A stretch of 64,000 nucleotides of DNA from Brevibacillus brevis (GTDB lineage: Bacteria; Bacillota; Bacilli; Brevibacillales; Brevibacillaceae). A model generated the notes under the pieces. The model saw only the letters and a program-made list of their open reading frames with translations, did no database searches and had not been told where the DNA came from. Shown piece after piece: positions 13,643 to 20,547 of this stretch (the first letter of the stretch is position 1; every line of letters begins with the position of its first letter). The position numbers and the translations under genes are program-made. The stretch lies in contig NZ_CP041767.1 of assembly GCF_022026395.1 (NCBI RefSeq), positions 5,272,001 through 5,336,000 on the forward strand, given 5' to 3'.

Positions 13643-15043
13643 TTATATCGATAACCCCACCCACTGCCAGTACGCGTAATAAAAGACGATCATCAGAATT
13701 GCGTGGGCTGCCCCTGCATACAAGCTCAACCGCAGCAAATCCTTAGGCAAAAAGGTCTCCTTGCCGCTTTCCTGGAACATGAGCAATGCTTTGGAGCTGA
13801 CATGGAAGGTCAGGCAGTAGTTCATGCCGACGATTCCTAAGAACAAAATGGTCACTTCATTCAAATCAAGGCTGCTCGCAAAGTAGAGAAGCGGTGGTAC
13901 AAGAATGACGGCTCTCGTTGTATGCGATGTAATGTACAGATGGGAGGTCAGTGTCAGCAAGGTAATAACCACAATGATCAGAAGGGATGATTCCCCTTCC
14001 AGATGCTCTGTGATCGTGAACAGCTTTTTCATGATCCACTCTGCCGCGCCGCTCTCCAACAACGACTTTCCGAGTGCAATCGCTGCCCCTACAAACAGAA
14101 TCAGATTCCACGAGACAGACTGTACGCCATCCTTCCATTTCATGACACCCACATTCGGCAATGTCAAAAGAAAGGCGCCAACGACTGTCGTAGTTGCAAT
14201 CTCGATTCCGTGAAAACGCTCTGTCAGCCAGAAAATGACCATCGCCCCGATCACGGCAACCGTATATTTTTCGTTGCGGGACAAGGTAAGGGAGAGCTTT
14301 TTGCTCGCGAGTGGGCGCTGCATCTCGTCTTTGGTGAGAAACAGAGCCAGAACAATCCGGCAAGTCACGATGCTGGCCACTACTCCAAACGGCAGTCCCC
14401 ACAACAGCCATTCCGCGAAGCTAATCCCTTCCCCATTGAACTCCTTCAGCATATCGAGCGCGATAAAATGGGAGCCTGCTCCGATCATAGTGGAGCTCGT
14501 CGATACTAAAATAATCGTCGGAATCAGGATCGCCATGGCTTTCGTGATTTGCTTGTTCCCGATTTCGGAGGTCAGCGAGTGAAAAACAGGCAGTAGCACC
14601 GCTGCGCGTCCAGAAGTAGACGGGATAAAGAAAGCGAGAAATTGAACGACGACCGTCAAGAGCCAAAACAAGCTTTTGACATTCTTTGCGCGGCTCACAA
14701 CCAGATCTGTTAGTTTCCCTGCCAAGCCGGTCACTTGAAGCGCACCGCCGAGAATGAACGAGCCAATCATTAACCAAATGACATCGGAGGCGAGCGAGTC
14801 GAACAAAATTTCCTGGTCAGCCGTTCCTGTCACGACGAGGAGTAATACGGAGCCAATCGCTACATAGGCGGAGTTCAGCGAGGTGGTCGTCCACAGGATC
14901 ACGGCGACACAGAAGCAGAACAAGCTCCATTTGGCTTCCAATGTCAGGGAAGACGGCAGCATAAGCAGTAATTCAACGAACATTATCAGGACAATCGGAA
15001 GGACCCAGGCAGGTCTTTCCTTTGCGACGGTCTGTGCAATCAC
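13643..15043 (-). CDS. SLC13/DASS-family transporter, probable glycerate or dicarboxylate carrier
   Basis: A 466-residue integral membrane protein with about 12 hydrophobic helices and the two Ser-Thr-rich re-entrant signatures of this family (FFIPSTSGRAAVLLPV and SHLYITSHTTRAVIL). Family members cotransport anions such as dicarboxylates or sulfate with sodium or act as exchangers. The start is taken as GTG at 15043, which overlaps the stop of the glycerate kinase gene (GTGA) with AAGGAG 8 nt upstream; a longer frame to 15133 would lie inside that gene. Tight coupling to glycerate kinase suggests the substrate is glycerate or a related hydroxy acid. Confidence 0.78.
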   Translation of the reverse strand: MIAQTVAKERPAWVLPIVLIMFVELLLMLPSSLTLEAKWSLFCFCVAVILWTTTSLNSAYVAIGSVLLLVVTGTADQEILFDSLASDVIWLMIGSFILGGALQVTGLAGKLTDLVVSRAKNVKSLFWLLTVVVQFLAFFIPSTSGRAAVLLPVFHSLTSEIGNKQITKAMAILIPTIILVSTSSTMIGAGSHFIALDMLKEFNGEGISFAEWLLWGLPFGVVASIVTCRIVLALFLTKDEMQRPLASKKLSLTLSRNEKYTVAVIGAMVIFWLTERFHGIEIATTTVVGAFLLTLPNVGVMKWKDGVQSVSWNLILFVGAAIALGKSLLESGAAEWIMKKLFTITEHLEGESSLLIIVVITLLTLTSHLYITSHTTRAVILVPPLLYFASSLDLNEVTILFLGIVGMNYCLTFHVSSKALLMFQESGKETFLPKDLLRLSLYAGAAHAILMIVFYYAYWQWVGLSI

Positions 15044-16224
15044 GATACTTGCTCCTTCGCCATTAAACGATTTGCGAGCTGCAAGCCCACCATGATGGTT
15101 CGCATGGAGCTTTCCGAGCAATCGGTCAACCATTTCTGTGCATGTATAAATGCTTCTTCCAACGTAGACGGCATCGGCAAAATACTCGTGTACGCGTCAA
15201 TTCCGTGCTCATAATTAAGTCGGGCACCTTTGCCAACAGTCCCCACCAAAGCCACTACCGGCAGGGCATGCTTCTTCGCCCGCTTCGCCACTTCCACCGG
15301 AATTTTTCCACGCGGTGTTTGAAAATCAATGCTTCCTTCCGCCGTAAACACAAGGTCTGTCTCTTGAAGCATCCGATCCAAATCAATGTACTTCATGATG
15401 ATGTCGTAGCGTGGATAAAGATTCGCACCCGTGAGAGCATGCAGTCCGGCACCCAAGCCACCCGATGCACCACTGCCCGGCATTTCTCTGACGTCGATCC
15501 CGAAATCCCGCTTAATGATAGACGCGAATTGTTCGAGTGCTTCTTCCAGCTCAACCACTTGCTCAGGCGTCGCTCCCTTTTGCGGTCCAAACACACGGGC
15601 GACTCCATTATCCCCACACAGTTTGTTAAACCAGTTGCAAGCCACATCGATTTGCACCTGCTCGAGTCGTTTGTCCATCCCGGAAACATCGATTTTCGTT
15701 ACTTTTGCCAGCGAGATACCGCCTTCAATATCGATTTCTTGACCGCTTGCATCCAAAAATCTCGCGCCAAGTGCTTGCGCCATGCCTGCCCCGCCATCGG
15801 AAGTACCAGAATCGCCGCAGCCTAGCAAAATACGCTCTGCCCCCATGTCCAGCGCCGCTTTGATCAATTCACCGACGCCATGTGTCGTCGTTTTGCGCGG
15901 GTCACGCAAGCTCCTTGGAACCAGTCGTAGTCCCGCTGCTGCCGCCATCTCAATCACAGCCGTTTGACCTGTCGTCTTTGATCCGAATATTCCGAAATGG
16001 GAAGGAATCTTTTCCCCTACAGGGCCTGTTACTTCCTTATCGATTATCGAGCCATTCGAAATTTTCACAATCGCTTTTGTAAAGCCTTCTCCTCCGTCTA
16101 CCATCGGCAGTGTCTGTACTTGGGAGAGCGGGAGCACGCGCAGAATTCCTTCTTTCATGCACTCAGCGGCTTGCTCAGCATCTAAGCTTTCCTTAAAGCC
16201 CGAAGGCACAACGAGTATACGCAT
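15040..16224 (-). CDS. glxK: Glycerate kinase
   Basis: A 394-residue enzyme of the GlxK/GarK family that phosphorylates D-glycerate (2- or 3-position, not distinguishable here) and so feeds it into glycolysis. Family markers: N-terminal VVPSGFKESLDAEQAA, MVDGGEGF, GCGDSGTSDGGAGMAQALG, MPGSGASGGLGAGL and the end-segment TAEGSIDFQTPRGK. Length agrees with family members. It is first in a two-gene operon with an SLC13-type carrier. A palindrome 50 bp upstream may be the operator. Confidence 0.92.
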   Translation of the reverse strand: MRILVVPSGFKESLDAEQAAECMKEGILRVLPLSQVQTLPMVDGGEGFTKAIVKISNGSIIDKEVTGPVGEKIPSHFGIFGSKTTGQTAVIEMAAAAGLRLVPRSLRDPRKTTTHGVGELIKAALDMGAERILLGCGDSGTSDGGAGMAQALGARFLDASGQEIDIEGGISLAKVTKIDVSGMDKRLEQVQIDVACNWFNKLCGDNGVARVFGPQKGATPEQVVELEEALEQFASIIKRDFGIDVREMPGSGASGGLGAGLHALTGANLYPRYDIIMKYIDLDRMLQETDLVFTAEGSIDFQTPRGKIPVEVAKRAKKHALPVVALVGTVGKGARLNYEHGIDAYTSILPMPSTLEEAFIHAQKWLTDCSESSMRTIMVGLQLANRLMAKEQVS

Positions 16225-16368: not shown

Positions 16369-17376
16369 CTAAGCGTTTCGTTTTCTGCGCAGTTGATAAT
16401 AGGTCACAGCCAGGGCAAGCGCCAAAACCGTCCCCTTAATAATATCGTAAGCATAATACGGCAGATTGAGCATCGTCATGCCGTTGAGTAGTACTCCGAT
16501 CAGAATGGCTCCCACAAATGTACCGAATACGTTTGGCTTTCCTGCACCGAAAACGGAGAAGCCTACGAAAGCAGCCGCTACTGCATCCATCAGCATGGAG
16601 CCGCCACTGCTCACCTGCCCGGTGCCGATCCGTGCTGCCAAAAGCATCCCGCCCAAGCCTGCAAAAAGAGCAGAAAGCACATATGCCAAGGTACGATAGC
16701 GATTCACAGGAATCCCCGACAGACGGGCTGCTTCCAAATTGCCGCCTGTCATGTACAGCATCCGTCCCTGTCTCGTATAGGTCAAGTACACATGCGTGAT
16801 CGCGACAAGTAGAAAGGTCAGGATAACCGGAACAGGAACGGAGAGAATTTCTCCTTGGCCCAGCCACAGGAACCATTCCTGAAATTTTCCCGGAGCTTGC
16901 GAGCCGTCCTGCATCGGCATGTTTGCGTAGATCGAGTAGCCTTGGGAATACGTCATATGAATACCGTTGACGATGTAGAGCATCGCCAGAGTAGCCAGCA
17001 AATCAGGAATGCGAATTTTCACGACCAAGAACGCGTTGATCAGCCCGACGAGCAAGCTGAGTACAATCGGAACAACCAGTGTCGGGAAGACTCCCTGTTC
17101 GTACCAAACCATCATCGAAGCAGAAACGACCGTGGTCAATGAAACCGTCGATCCTACAGACAAATCAAAGCCTCCGACAATCAGCGAAAACGTAACGCCA
17201 ATCGCGACAAATGTCACAATCGAGATGGAGCGAAGAATGTCCGTCAAGTTGTCGTACGTGAAGAAATACGGGTTAGTCAAGCTGAATAACAACATGACAA
17301 TAACGATGACTGCAACCGTTCCGTATTTGTAAACAAAATCAAATAAGCTAAACTTTTTATCTGCCACGTTACTCAC
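16369..17376 (-). CDS. Sugar ABC transporter permease (RbsC-like)
   Basis: A 335-residue permease of the ribose/galactose/AI-2 type (BPD_transp_2), with about ten membrane helices. Typical segments are TFVAIGVTFSLIVGGFDLSVGS near the N-terminus and GGMLLAARIGTGQVSSGGSMLMDAVAAAFVG in the second half (quoted in description only; key residues G-FDLSVGS). Its start overlaps the ATPase gene end by 8 bp. It would form the membrane channel for the substrate captured by the lipoprotein at 18953. The substrate is not known; upstream SAM-riboswitch control hints at a methionine-cycle pentose compound. Confidence 0.86.
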   Translation of the reverse strand: MSNVADKKFSLFDFVYKYGTVAVIVIVMLLFSLTNPYFFTYDNLTDILRSISIVTFVAIGVTFSLIVGGFDLSVGSTVSLTTVVSASMMVWYEQGVFPTLVVPIVLSLLVGLINAFLVVKIRIPDLLATLAMLYIVNGIHMTYSQGYSIYANMPMQDGSQAPGKFQEWFLWLGQGEILSVPVPVILTFLLVAITHVYLTYTRQGRMLYMTGGNLEAARLSGIPVNRYRTLAYVLSALFAGLGGMLLAARIGTGQVSSGGSMLMDAVAAAFVGFSVFGAGKPNVFGTFVGAILIGVLLNGMTMLNLPYYAYDIIKGTVLALALAVTYYQLRRKRNA

Positions 17377-18859
17377 CTCCGCTTGCGTAGTACATAATCA
17401 ACTCTTGTGTTGCTTCCTCGCGACTCAATTCCTTCACGATCTTGCCCTCGAACATGACGAGAATCCGATCTGCGATCCCGATAACTTCCTGAAACTCACA
17501 GGAGAAATACAGGACGCCCTTTTTCTGCTCGGCAAGATTTCCGATCAGGCGGTAAATATCGCTTTTCGCTCCGATATCCACTCCTTTTGTCGGCTCGTCA
17601 AACATAAAGAGGTGAGCGTTTGTATCCAGCCATTTACCGATCGCGACTTTTTGCTGGTTTCCGCCGCTGAGAAAACCGACCAACTGCTTGATATCGGCTG
17701 CTTTTACACCAAGGCGCTGCACCAGCTCTTTTGCGTTAGCCGCTTCCGCCCCTCTTTTGATAAACCCCAGCCAGGATTTCTTTTTCAACGAGGCGACTGA
17801 CAGATTGTTCTGCACGGACTCCTCTACAAAAATGCCCTCTTTGCGCCTTTCCTCCGGGACGAGTACGATTCCGGCATCGACGGCGTCTTTTGGCGAGTGC
17901 AGTTGGATACGTTTTCCATGCAATCGAATGGCTCCAGCCTTTGCTTCATCTGCACCGAAGAGCAATCGGGCGAGCTCAGTCTTCCCTGCCCCGACTAGAC
18001 CGACGACACCCACGATCTCTCCCTCGCGCACCTGCAGGTCGACTCCGCGTACTTTGCCGCCAGCCACACCTGACGCCTCAAAAATCGTTTCCCCAATCGG
18101 CACTTCGAGCTTCGGGAACTCCTCGTCAAAGCTTTTGCCCAGCATGTTCGCAATCACTTCGTCCATGTTGGTATTCACCGTGTCTGTGGTCATGACGTGC
18201 TGTCCATCGCGCATGATCGTGATCCGATCACAGATTTCAAAGATTTCCGGCAGGCGGTGGGAGATATAAATGATCCCGACTCCAGCTTTTTTCAACTGCG
18301 CAATGATTTGAAACAGCCGCTCGCTCTCCTTCGTGCTCAACGGCGCTGTCGGTTCATCGAAAATAACGTACTTCCCCTTTTGGACGGTCGCCCGTGCAAT
18401 CAAAATCAATTGCTTTTCCGACAGCGTACATTCCTCGACGAGCATCCTCACCGGAATGGAAAAGCCGAAGTTTTTTAAAATCTGCTCCGTTTCGTTGTAC
18501 AAGCTCTGCCAGTTGATCAGTCCTTTGGTTTTCGCCTGGACGAGCTGGTCCGCCAATATGTTTTCGGCGACGCTCAAATACGGGATCAAGGCGGTGTCCA
18601 CTTCCTGATATACACATTGGATGCCCTGTGCTTTGGCATCCTGCGGCGAATTGATCGTCACAGCCTGTCCATCGATGGTGATCGTACCGCCATCTGCCTG
18701 ATACGCTCCCGTGAGGATTTTCATCAGGGTACTCTTTCCCGCGCCATTGGCTCCGAGCAGTGCGTGAACCTCTCCTGCACGCACCTCAAAATTGACGGAT
18801 CGCAGGGCAGGAACCCCAGAAAATTGCTTCGCCATCCCTTTCATCTGCAATGTGGACAT
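17369..18859 (-). CDS. Sugar ABC transporter ATP-binding protein (RbsA-like, duplicated)
   Basis: A 496-residue protein with two ABC domains, as in RbsA/MglA. First domain: Walker A GANGAGKST, signature-like LSEKQLILIARA, Walker B YVIFDEPTAP. Second domain: a glycine-rich GLVGAGKTEL in place of a canonical Walker A, signature LSGGNQQKVAIGK, and FMFDEPTKGVD. Degeneration of the signature in domain 1 is normal for this family. It lies between the binding-protein gene (with a terminator in the gap) and the permease gene and energises uptake. Confidence 0.9.
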   Translation of the reverse strand: MSTLQMKGMAKQFSGVPALRSVNFEVRAGEVHALLGANGAGKSTLMKILTGAYQADGGTITIDGQAVTINSPQDAKAQGIQCVYQEVDTALIPYLSVAENILADQLVQAKTKGLINWQSLYNETEQILKNFGFSIPVRMLVEECTLSEKQLILIARATVQKGKYVIFDEPTAPLSTKESERLFQIIAQLKKAGVGIIYISHRLPEIFEICDRITIMRDGQHVMTTDTVNTNMDEVIANMLGKSFDEEFPKLEVPIGETIFEASGVAGGKVRGVDLQVREGEIVGVVGLVGAGKTELARLLFGADEAKAGAIRLHGKRIQLHSPKDAVDAGIVLVPEERRKEGIFVEESVQNNLSVASLKKKSWLGFIKRGAEAANAKELVQRLGVKAADIKQLVGFLSGGNQQKVAIGKWLDTNAHLFMFDEPTKGVDIGAKSDIYRLIGNLAEQKKGVLYFSCEFQEVIGIADRILVMFEGKIVKELSREEATQELIMYYASGGE

Positions 18860-18952: not shown

Positions 18953-19975
18953 TTACTTGCCCCACTCTTTTACGTATTGGGACAGGTCGCCCATCGTTAC
19001 TTTTTTATCCTTCGGCAGGTCCTCTTGTTTCACCAGCACTGGGGTTAGCTTCACGTTGTCTGGCACCTGCTCGCCTTTGATTTTTTGGAACACGGTTTGG
19101 GCATGGATGCGTCCGATATTGGATGGGTCTACTGCTGCCGTCGCTGCCCACGGAGAGTTTTCCGCCTGGATCATTTGCAGATCCTCATCGCTCAAATCGA
19201 TGGAGTATACTTTGATTTCCGTACGGCCTGCTTGCTGGATGGCGCGTGTCGCCCCTTTGGCAAATTCATCCCATGCCGCCCATACCGCTGTGATGTCGCC
19301 TTTGTTCGGATACTTTTTCAAGATTGCTTCCATCTGCGTTTGTGTATCGAGGGCCGTATTGTTGGTAGCAGAACCGAATGCCGCAATCTCTTTCAAATCC
19401 GGATATTTCTTCTGGAAAGCTTCATAGGTCACTTGGCGCTTTTCCATAGGCGCAAAGCCAGCTACCCAAATTTTCACAATATTGCCTTTGCCGTTTGTAT
19501 CTGCCGCCAGCTTCTCCAGGCTCAGCTCTGCCAACTTGTTGTCATCCTGCGCCACAACTGGCACACCCGGAATGTTGATGTCTGTATCAAACAGAACGAC
19601 CGGAATTTTTTTATCAACGGCCTTTTGCGTGCCCTGCTGCAGCGCTTCCGCCGTACCATGATCAATCAGAATGCCGTCGAACTTTTGGTTCACAGCCGCA
19701 TCGAGATTGGACGCCATTTTTGCCAGATCGGTATCTGCATTGAAAACGGTCAACTCGCCGCCGTTTTTCTCCACCTCTGTCTTCACGCCATTGATGTATT
19801 GTGCAGAAAACGTTCCTACGTTCTGACGCATGATCAATGCGATTCTCTTCGCCTTCTCTCCCGAAGCACCGCCGTTTGTGCTGCCGGTTCCCGTTGTTGC
19901 CCCGCTGCCGCATGCCGTCACAAGAACAGATGCTGCCAAAACAAGTGATGTGATCAGACCGAGTTTCTTTTTCAT
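18953..19975 (-). CDS. Sugar ABC transporter substrate-binding lipoprotein (RbsB-like)
   Basis: A 340-residue lipoprotein starting at the ATG at 19975 (AGGGGG 9 nt upstream). The signal peptide ends in the lipobox LVTAC, followed by a Gly/Ser/Thr linker and a type I periplasmic-binding fold: RIALIMRQNVGTFSAQYI, GILIDHGTAEALQQG, VVLFDTDI, GDITAVWAAWDEFAKGA. This class binds pentoses, hexoses or furanosyl compounds. The upstream leader contains a SAM riboswitch, so ligands linked to methionine salvage, for example methylthioribose, deserve consideration; that is inference. Confidence 0.86.
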   Translation of the reverse strand: MKKKLGLITSLVLAASVLVTACGSGATTGTGSTNGGASGEKAKRIALIMRQNVGTFSAQYINGVKTEVEKNGGELTVFNADTDLAKMASNLDAAVNQKFDGILIDHGTAEALQQGTQKAVDKKIPVVLFDTDINIPGVPVVAQDDNKLAELSLEKLAADTNGKGNIVKIWVAGFAPMEKRQVTYEAFQKKYPDLKEIAAFGSATNNTALDTQTQMEAILKKYPNKGDITAVWAAWDEFAKGATRAIQQAGRTEIKVYSIDLSDEDLQMIQAENSPWAATAAVDPSNIGRIHAQTVFQKIKGEQVPDNVKLTPVLVKQEDLPKDKKVTMGDLSQYVKEWGK

Positions 19976-20090
19976 TGAGATGTTCCCCCTTTTTCTTTTT
20001 AAAACACATAACAAAATTAAAAATTTTGTTTCCCCTCATTCGATCGAAGCTTCTTTTGATTTCACTTTCAAAAAGGAAAAAAACTTCGTA

Positions 20091-20291
20091 GAAGAAGCGC
20101 ATTTCCAGTCCAAGCGCCTCTGGAGCCCATCTCAGCGTAGGAAGAAATAGCGGGGAATTTCAGCTTTTATTACATACAAAAACGCATTCGCGTTTTCAGG
20201 TTTGAAGCGCTCCCGCTATTTCTTCCGAAGCGGACAGTCTTCACTCACAGCGGGGCGGAGGCCGAAGCGTAGACTGGAAATGCGCTTCTTC
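20091..20291. repeat. 200-bp nested palindromic element
   Basis: Three nested inverted repeats share a centre: a perfect 20-bp pair (20091-20110 with 20272-20291; arm begins GAAGAAGCGCATTTCC), a perfect 15-bp pair GGAAGAAATAGCGGG (20140-20154 with 20212-20226), and a central AAAACGC-attc-GCGTTTT (20179-20196). It has no open reading frame of note and stands between the riboswitch and the ABC operon. It looks like a non-autonomous repeat or a large RNA/DNA cruciform. No second copy was noticed in the window. Confidence 0.7.
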
Positions 20292-20307
20292 CCCGCGACA
20301 GCTACGC

Positions 20308-20480
20308 AAAAAATCCTCTTTCACAGAGAAAGAGGACAAAAATCGACAAGATTCTCGCCTCTTATCTGTCAGGTATTCTACCTGTTGGAGTTAGCACCTT
20401 GGCTCGAAAGAACGCATTCTCTCGTGCTAGGTTGCCGGGCTTCATTGGGCCATTCCCTCAGCCTTCTCTTGATAAGAGTT
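20308..20480 (-). ncRNA. SAM-I (S-box) riboswitch with terminator
   Basis: The minus-strand leader contains the S-box hallmarks in order: CTTATCAAGAGAAGGCTGAG, GGAATGGCCCAATGAAGCCC, GGCAACC, AAGGTGCTAACTCCAACAG and the closing AGATAAGAGGCGAG. The aptamer spans about 20359-20480. It is followed by an intrinsic terminator, TCCTCTTT-loop-AAAGAGGA with six T residues (20308-20337). High SAM should stabilise the terminator and switch transcription off. The next gene downstream on this strand is the RbsB-like lipoprotein, 330 bp away. Confidence 0.93.
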
Positions 20481-20518
20481 GTTTCTATTTTCAAAACGTT
20501 TGTATAAGTATATACAGA

Positions 20519-20547
20519 ATATAATCTGGCAATTACCTATCTGTCAA
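20519..20547 (-). promoter_or_regulatory. Sigma-A promoter for the SAM riboswitch transcript
   Basis: TTGACA at 20547-20542, a 17-bp spacer and TTATAT at 20524-20519, about 35 bp upstream of the aptamer. The spacing is ideal. The rest of 20548-20660 is AT-rich, with no feature beyond the region preceding the plus-strand kinase gene. Confidence 0.75.

Follow-up and report, generated by a model that had tools for sequence, protein, structure and literature searches.

What would an importer of ribose-transporter type carry when its genes stand behind a SAM riboswitch? The question is raised by a locus of Brevibacillus brevis, analysed here within a stretch of 64,000 nucleotides (the window), for which a first-pass annotation made from the sequence alone had proposed uptake of a methionine-cycle pentose or nucleoside, such as 5-methylthioribose (MTR), and not of a general sugar. 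Taken together, the comparisons below indicate that the locus very probably encodes a SAM-riboswitch-controlled ABC importer for MTR, the mtr system (mtrACB/mtnXYZ) of methionine salvage. A SAM-sensing RNA ahead of an MTR importer would make recapture of that sulfur depend on how much SAM the cell itself contains. Features of the locus, together with a second importer discussed at the end, are listed in Table 1.

Table 1. Features of the importer locus, in window coordinates, and location of a second S-box importer locus in the same genome
Feature	Position	Strand	Remarks
Promoter-like site, TTGACA-18-TATATT	20518..20547	(-)	consensus match only
SAM-I (S-box) riboswitch aptamer	20359..20478	(-)	RF00162
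Antiterminator	20323..20369	(-)	3' side of P1, AAGAGG, pairs with CCUCUU of terminator 5' arm; ACAGA pairs with UCUGU
Intrinsic terminator of riboswitch	20313..20337	(-)	also present in the fold
MITE-like repeat with inverted ends	20087..20295 (about)	(-)	in the leader, after the terminator and before the start codon
Substrate-binding lipoprotein (SBP), predicted MTR-binding, Peripla_BP_4	18953..19975	(-)	ATG at 19975; PF13407
CUT2-type ABC ATPase, two ABC domains	17369..18859	(-)	AraG/RbsA-like; PF00005 in two stretches
CUT2-type permease	16369..17376	(-)	PF02653
Glycerate kinase	15040-16224	(-)	downstream of permease
DASS symporter	13643-15133	(-)	downstream of glycerate kinase
BMP-type importer locus	L152:2289-8655, own genome about 5768.3-5774.7 kb		S-box and gene set

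The pairing of a SAM riboswitch with a ribose-type ABC importer downstream, as first annotated, was confirmed from both sides. Rfam model RF00162 has a gathering score of 44.4 bits and matches the leader with 81.7 bits (E = 1e-17); it is the sole Rfam match at gathering score within the 64-kb window. NCBIfam and Pfam models identify the three genes downstream as SBP, ATPase and permease of the CUT2 type. The riboswitch model aligns in full (1-108), J1/2 (AUCAAGAG) and the core agree with the SAM-I consensus, and nothing unusual was seen in the aptamer by comparison with RF00162. Promoter, aptamer and terminator had also been described as intact, which holds: the promoter-like site matches the consensus at 11 of 12 positions, the aptamer covers the full model, and the terminator has a 10-pair stem followed by a T run. 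Two promoter-like sites were observed in the scanned region, with 2.0 expected from shuffled sequence; because this count is that of chance, the weight of the site ahead of the aptamer lies in its quality and its place. Terminator-like sites in the scan numbered five, with 2.5 expected (sd 2.0).

The window leader has alternative minimum-energy folds of the kind expected for a terminating switch, with P1, antiterminator and terminator all represented. For the full leader, the minimum (-61.2 kcal/mol) contains P1 and the terminator. When the transcript is cut before the 3' arm of the terminator, the minimum contains the antiterminator, at -55.9 kcal/mol versus -49.2 kcal/mol with P1 imposed. 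Similar antiterminator arms were seen by eye in 12 aligned Brevibacillus leaders, and these arms differ little from leader to leader. For the other 21 leaders, each folded with 75 extra bases, the minimum does not in every case combine P1 with the terminator, and these folds were not counted as evidence. We infer from sequence and predicted folding that the window aptamer binds SAM and that termination depends on SAM.

For the transporter itself, the best NCBIfam models are RbsB for the SBP, AraG for the ATPase and the ribose permease model for the permease. The SBP falls below the curated cut-off of every one of the 12 NCBIfam models that it matches, and the ATPase falls below those of the sugar equivalogs listed. 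Cut-offs of the RbsABC set are missed by all three components, with 61.7 of 337 bits for RbsB, 481 of 745 for RbsA and 183.7 of 398 for the ribose permease.

An AlphaFold2 model of the SBP (mean pLDDT 89.5) was compared with solved structures by VIA-align, which ranks 4RY8 at the top (Z 42.0, rmsd 1.4 over 298 residues, 37% identity), tied with 5ULB (Z 41.3, 38% identity) and followed by 4WT7 (34.9); the best ribose-binding protein reaches Z 32.8. Foldseek returns 5ULB first and 4RY8 second, and a sequence search of solved structures gives the same two proteins as its top matches. The ligand of 4RY8 is taken from the beginning of its title, 'Crystal structure of 5-methylthioribose transporter solute binding protein TLET_1677'. 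This protein of Thermotoga lettingae, an organism of a different phylum from Brevibacillus, shares one fold with the window SBP along the mature protein, although identity is limited to the 37% noted above. 5ULB, similar in fold, comes from Yersinia enterocolitica and is a sugar ABC transporter SBP; no ligand is given in its title.

The ligand pocket of E. coli RbsB includes D89, R90, R141, N190, D215 and Q235. The alignment shows the equivalents of D89, R141 and D215 retained in the window SBP, 4RY8 and 5ULB, while those of R90, N190 and Q235 are replaced in the three proteins by T/L, W and V/T, respectively. 3L49 and 4WT7 share the pocket tryptophan, which therefore has no diagnostic value and carries little weight.

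The genome that encodes the importer (6.16 Mb) has 14 S-boxes, and its salvage genes form two clusters, mtnK-mtnA and mtnW-mtnX-mtnB-mtnD, each behind an S-box of its own. MtnX passes PRK09552 and scores just under the cut-off of TIGR03333 (288.4 of 303.2 bits); MtnD was assigned by its ARD Pfam family. The transporter lies some 260 kb from mtnK. With these clusters present in the genome, imported MTR could be phosphorylated and returned to methionine.

The annotation had suggested looking for the same pairing in related genomes. Of 26 Brevibacillus genomes, 24 do have an S-box ahead of the SBP gene; in the other two, L049 and L053, the contig ends less than 150 nt upstream. A broader sample of 80 related loci was taken from genome contigs, 14 of them from Brevibacillus and overlapping the 26-genome set. 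Here the S-box stands directly upstream of the SBP gene in 21 loci, and 12 of the 80 show the run S-box-mtnK-mtnA-SBP-ATPase-permease. In 47 loci, the parts of the coding strand that were searched contain no S-box; these loci are mostly from Paenibacillus and its kin but include Brevibacillus contig ends (L071 and L073) and short contigs (L099, L103 and L116). Rfam searches of 11 of these 47 loci returned no SAM-family RNA; their matches were one tRNA and two group II introns, all in L144. Universal S-box control of the transporter, given 47 of 80 loci without an S-box in the stretch examined, was rejected. Among the S-box-negative loci, mtnK follows the permease gene in L130 and L135, and mtn genes stand just upstream in L099 and L116, both of them short contigs. 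None of the Paenibacillus orthologues examined shows S-box control. Upstream of the orthologous transporter in two such loci, L088 and L115, is a large divergent gene; its product (about 790 aa, membrane-like at the N-terminus) is perhaps a different regulator.

Farther afield, a Priestia megaterium plasmid carries mtnW-mtnX-mtnB-mtnD-SBP-ATPase-permease with an S-box before mtnW; its mtnD product, annotated as a cupin protein, was matched to MtnD here. On an Enterobacter plasmid the order is ATPase-permease-SBP, with mtnK and mtnA close by; in an Acetoanaerobium record these two mtn genes lie downstream. Distant homologues on Rahnella and Rhizobium plasmids (36-39%) had no mtn neighbours in the stretch seen. 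A link of the family to mtnK or mtnA is thus found among relatives, while in the source genome the genes are not adjacent.

Co-occurrence was scored for this SBP alone across 299 genomes of the class, with SBP calls accepted at E up to 1e-75 and MTR kinase calls above the curated cut-off. MTR kinase is present in 78 of 79 SBP-positive genomes versus 66 of 220 SBP-negative genomes, and the two genes lie within 6 kb of one another in 34 of the 79. The single SBP-positive genome lacking a kinase match, G030, is a 2-Mb draft. Since the genomes share ancestry, the Fisher p of 3e-30 for this association overstates it.

A system of this kind has been predicted before, with an S-box in Bacillus cereus and under MetJ in enterobacteria. 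According to PMC3228920, which cites Rodionov et al. 2004, B. cereus was the species in which a probable MTR transporter was first recognised; its control was assigned to an S-box in that species and to metboxes in gammaproteobacteria, and it was then functionally uncharacterised. The same paper reports that MetJ represses mtrB (tight) and mtrA (0.42). Both MTR and MTA arise as by-products when polyamines are made and in other reactions of SAM, and E. coli excretes MTR (PMC3228920). PMC4239095 places mtnXYZ in the MetJ regulon, listed as methylthioribose uptake. No MTR uptake data for the mtr transporter class were found in the literature searched, nor was the phrase 'methylthioribose transporter' found in the full texts searched.

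The window locus resembles mtrACB/mtnXYZ in having a CUT2-type ABC importer, methionine-responsive control and an association with mtnK/mtnA; its control element is the S-box conserved in the genus, for which a response to methionine or SAM is predicted. It differs in being a stand-alone S-box transcript away from the mtn genes, in its gene order of SBP-ATPase-permease, and in the repeat within its leader. Because a probable MTR transporter with an S-box had already been predicted in B. cereus (PMC3228920), the window system is not new in kind, and it is, judged by its genes and their context, a further well-supported example of the predicted mtr system. In the sources consulted, support for the class comes from genome context, from data on MetJ repression and from a crystal structure; the locus offers a test case for it outside pathogens.

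A mechanism can be proposed. With SAM plentiful, P1 would be stabilised, the terminator would form, and transcription would halt before the importer genes. With SAM low, and hence methionine low, the terminator's 5' arm would be paired instead to the 3' side of P1, letting RNA polymerase continue across the inserted repeat into the genes for lipoprotein, ATPase and permease. External MTR would be bound by the lipoprotein, imported, and phosphorylated by MtnK, and phosphorylated MTR would be converted to methionine by way of MtnA, MtnB, MtnW, MtnX and MtnD. Since importer and mtn enzymes all stand behind S-boxes, scarcity of SAM would induce them together. Binding and transport of MTR, and read-through across the repeat, are steps that we infer.

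Other identities for the substrate can be weighed against MTR. An importer for ribose, or for monosaccharides generally, that came to stand behind an S-box by chance would account for the CUT2 family membership and for the RbsB, AraG and ribose permease models at the top of the NCBIfam results, but it is very improbable in view of how widely the curated cut-offs are missed (that of RbsB, for example), the grouping of the SBP with 4RY8 and 5ULB by both sequence and fold, the recurrent linkage to mtn genes, and the retention of the S-box across the genus. The ribose importer was rejected on the cut-offs, the structure ranking and the genomic context. The original proposal of MTR over a general sugar draws its support, at the level of sequence, from the 4RY8/5ULB ranking, the mtn context, the near-constant presence of MTR kinase and the mtn genes of the source genome. 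A broader range that overlaps this reading, with 5-modified pentoses (MTR and 5-deoxyribose) as substrates and with methionine salvage combined with disposal of radical-SAM by-products, is possible, if doubtful. Some pocket positions are unlike those of ribose-binding proteins, as such a range would allow, and in the DHAP shunt of E. coli MtnK and MtnA handle 5-deoxyribose as well as MTR (PMC10986504, PMC12632272). Against the broader range stand the title of 4RY8, which names an MTR transporter protein, the fit between sulfur salvage and control by SAM level, and the position of relatives of the importer beside mtnW, mtnX, mtnB and mtnD, the methionine-producing branch.

Control by SAM has to be weighed likewise, and here the repeat in the leader, which went unmentioned in the first-pass annotation, comes into play. 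It is a hairpin-forming element of roughly 200 bp with long inverted arms, including an inverted repeat of 25 nt (20091-20115/20267-20291), and the genome contains 44 matches to it, counting the window copy; in 22 of them the match covers 180 or more of the 216 bases of the query. The distance from aptamer to start codon is 383 nt in the window versus about 95 nt in two close species, L048 and L052, whose compact leaders lack the repeat; the window leader, like RF00162 members in having a full aptamer, antiterminator and terminator, is about 290 nt longer than these. The same repeat occurs in the leaders of L046, L047 and L050, with a partial copy in L049. Leaders L046 and L051 have, between terminator and SBP start, an extra stretch with inverted arms of its own that is absent from the window.

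An insertion with long inverted arms between terminator and start codon could have uncoupled the riboswitch from the transporter, leaving the latter on another promoter or silent, and the annotation had itself named a separate transporter promoter as grounds for abandoning its reading. A consensus scan of the minus strand from 20313 to 19975 finds no promoter-like site, and the repeat sits after the switch, not within it. Whether or not the repeat is present, the aptamers of L046, L047, L048, L050, L051 and L052 share 96.7-99.2% identity with the window aptamer, and SBPs of the six closest species with visible leaders are 96-99% identical to the window SBP. Such near-identity of aptamers regardless of the repeat gives no sign that the insertion freed the switch from selection, and we consider uncoupling unlikely. 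Still less credence is due to an aptamer of the rare spermidine-sensing SAM-I type, which would tie the importer to polyamine level in place of SAM. Such variants exist, and MTA arises from polyamine synthesis, but PMC10853860 describes them as altered in J1/2 and the P3 internal loop, whereas J1/2 and the conserved core of the window aptamer are those of the SAM-I consensus. The spermidine variant was rejected by this measure.

Returning to the SAM-controlled MTR importer, the extent of its transcript calls for one correction. The transporter had been described as the only genes downstream on its strand, which is not so; beyond the permease gene the minus strand also carries genes for a glycerate kinase and a DASS symporter. 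The scan recognised no terminator-like site between permease and glycerate kinase genes, and a weak promoter-like site just before the latter (16425-16396, 9 of 12 matches) is at chance level. The transcript may run past the permease gene into both. The two genes accompany the transporter in 3 of the 80 loci, all from close relatives (L071-L073).

Elsewhere in the genome, an S-box at 5774532-5774654 precedes genes for a BMP-type (PnrA-like) lipoprotein, an ATPase and two permeases. After the permeases, on the same strand, come a molybdopterin-oxidoreductase gene and then a phosphorylase-superfamily gene, for which the nearest models, uridine phosphorylase and DeoD, are matched below cut-off. 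The BMP lipoprotein occurs in 25 of the 26 genus genomes (E up to 1e-60). Its gene has an S-box ahead of it in 24 of them; the remaining locus, L178, is a contig end. Among 15 more distant BMP loci, three have an S-box upstream, all in the family of the source genome. No literature on pairing of an S-box with a BMP importer was found by title or abstract start. These observations suggest a second importer under the control of SAM; its ligand, at a guess, is a nucleoside such as MTA. We suggest only tentatively that Brevibacillus has a two-importer regulon under SAM riboswitches, in which the mtr system would take up MTR and the BMP-type importer a SAM-derived nucleoside, for example MTA; this reading is weakened by the molybdopterin-oxidoreductase gene, which separates the phosphorylase gene from the second permease. 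If it is true, both by-products of SAM use, MTR and MTA, would be recaptured when SAM is low.

Elsewhere in the same genome, a tandem S-box pair (3807721-3808003) lies upstream of a homoserine-dehydrogenase-like gene, and the weakest S-box (L014, 2990361-2990487, 48.2 bits) stands before an Xaa-Pro aminopeptidase-like gene, an unusual-looking target; both genes are named from their translations.
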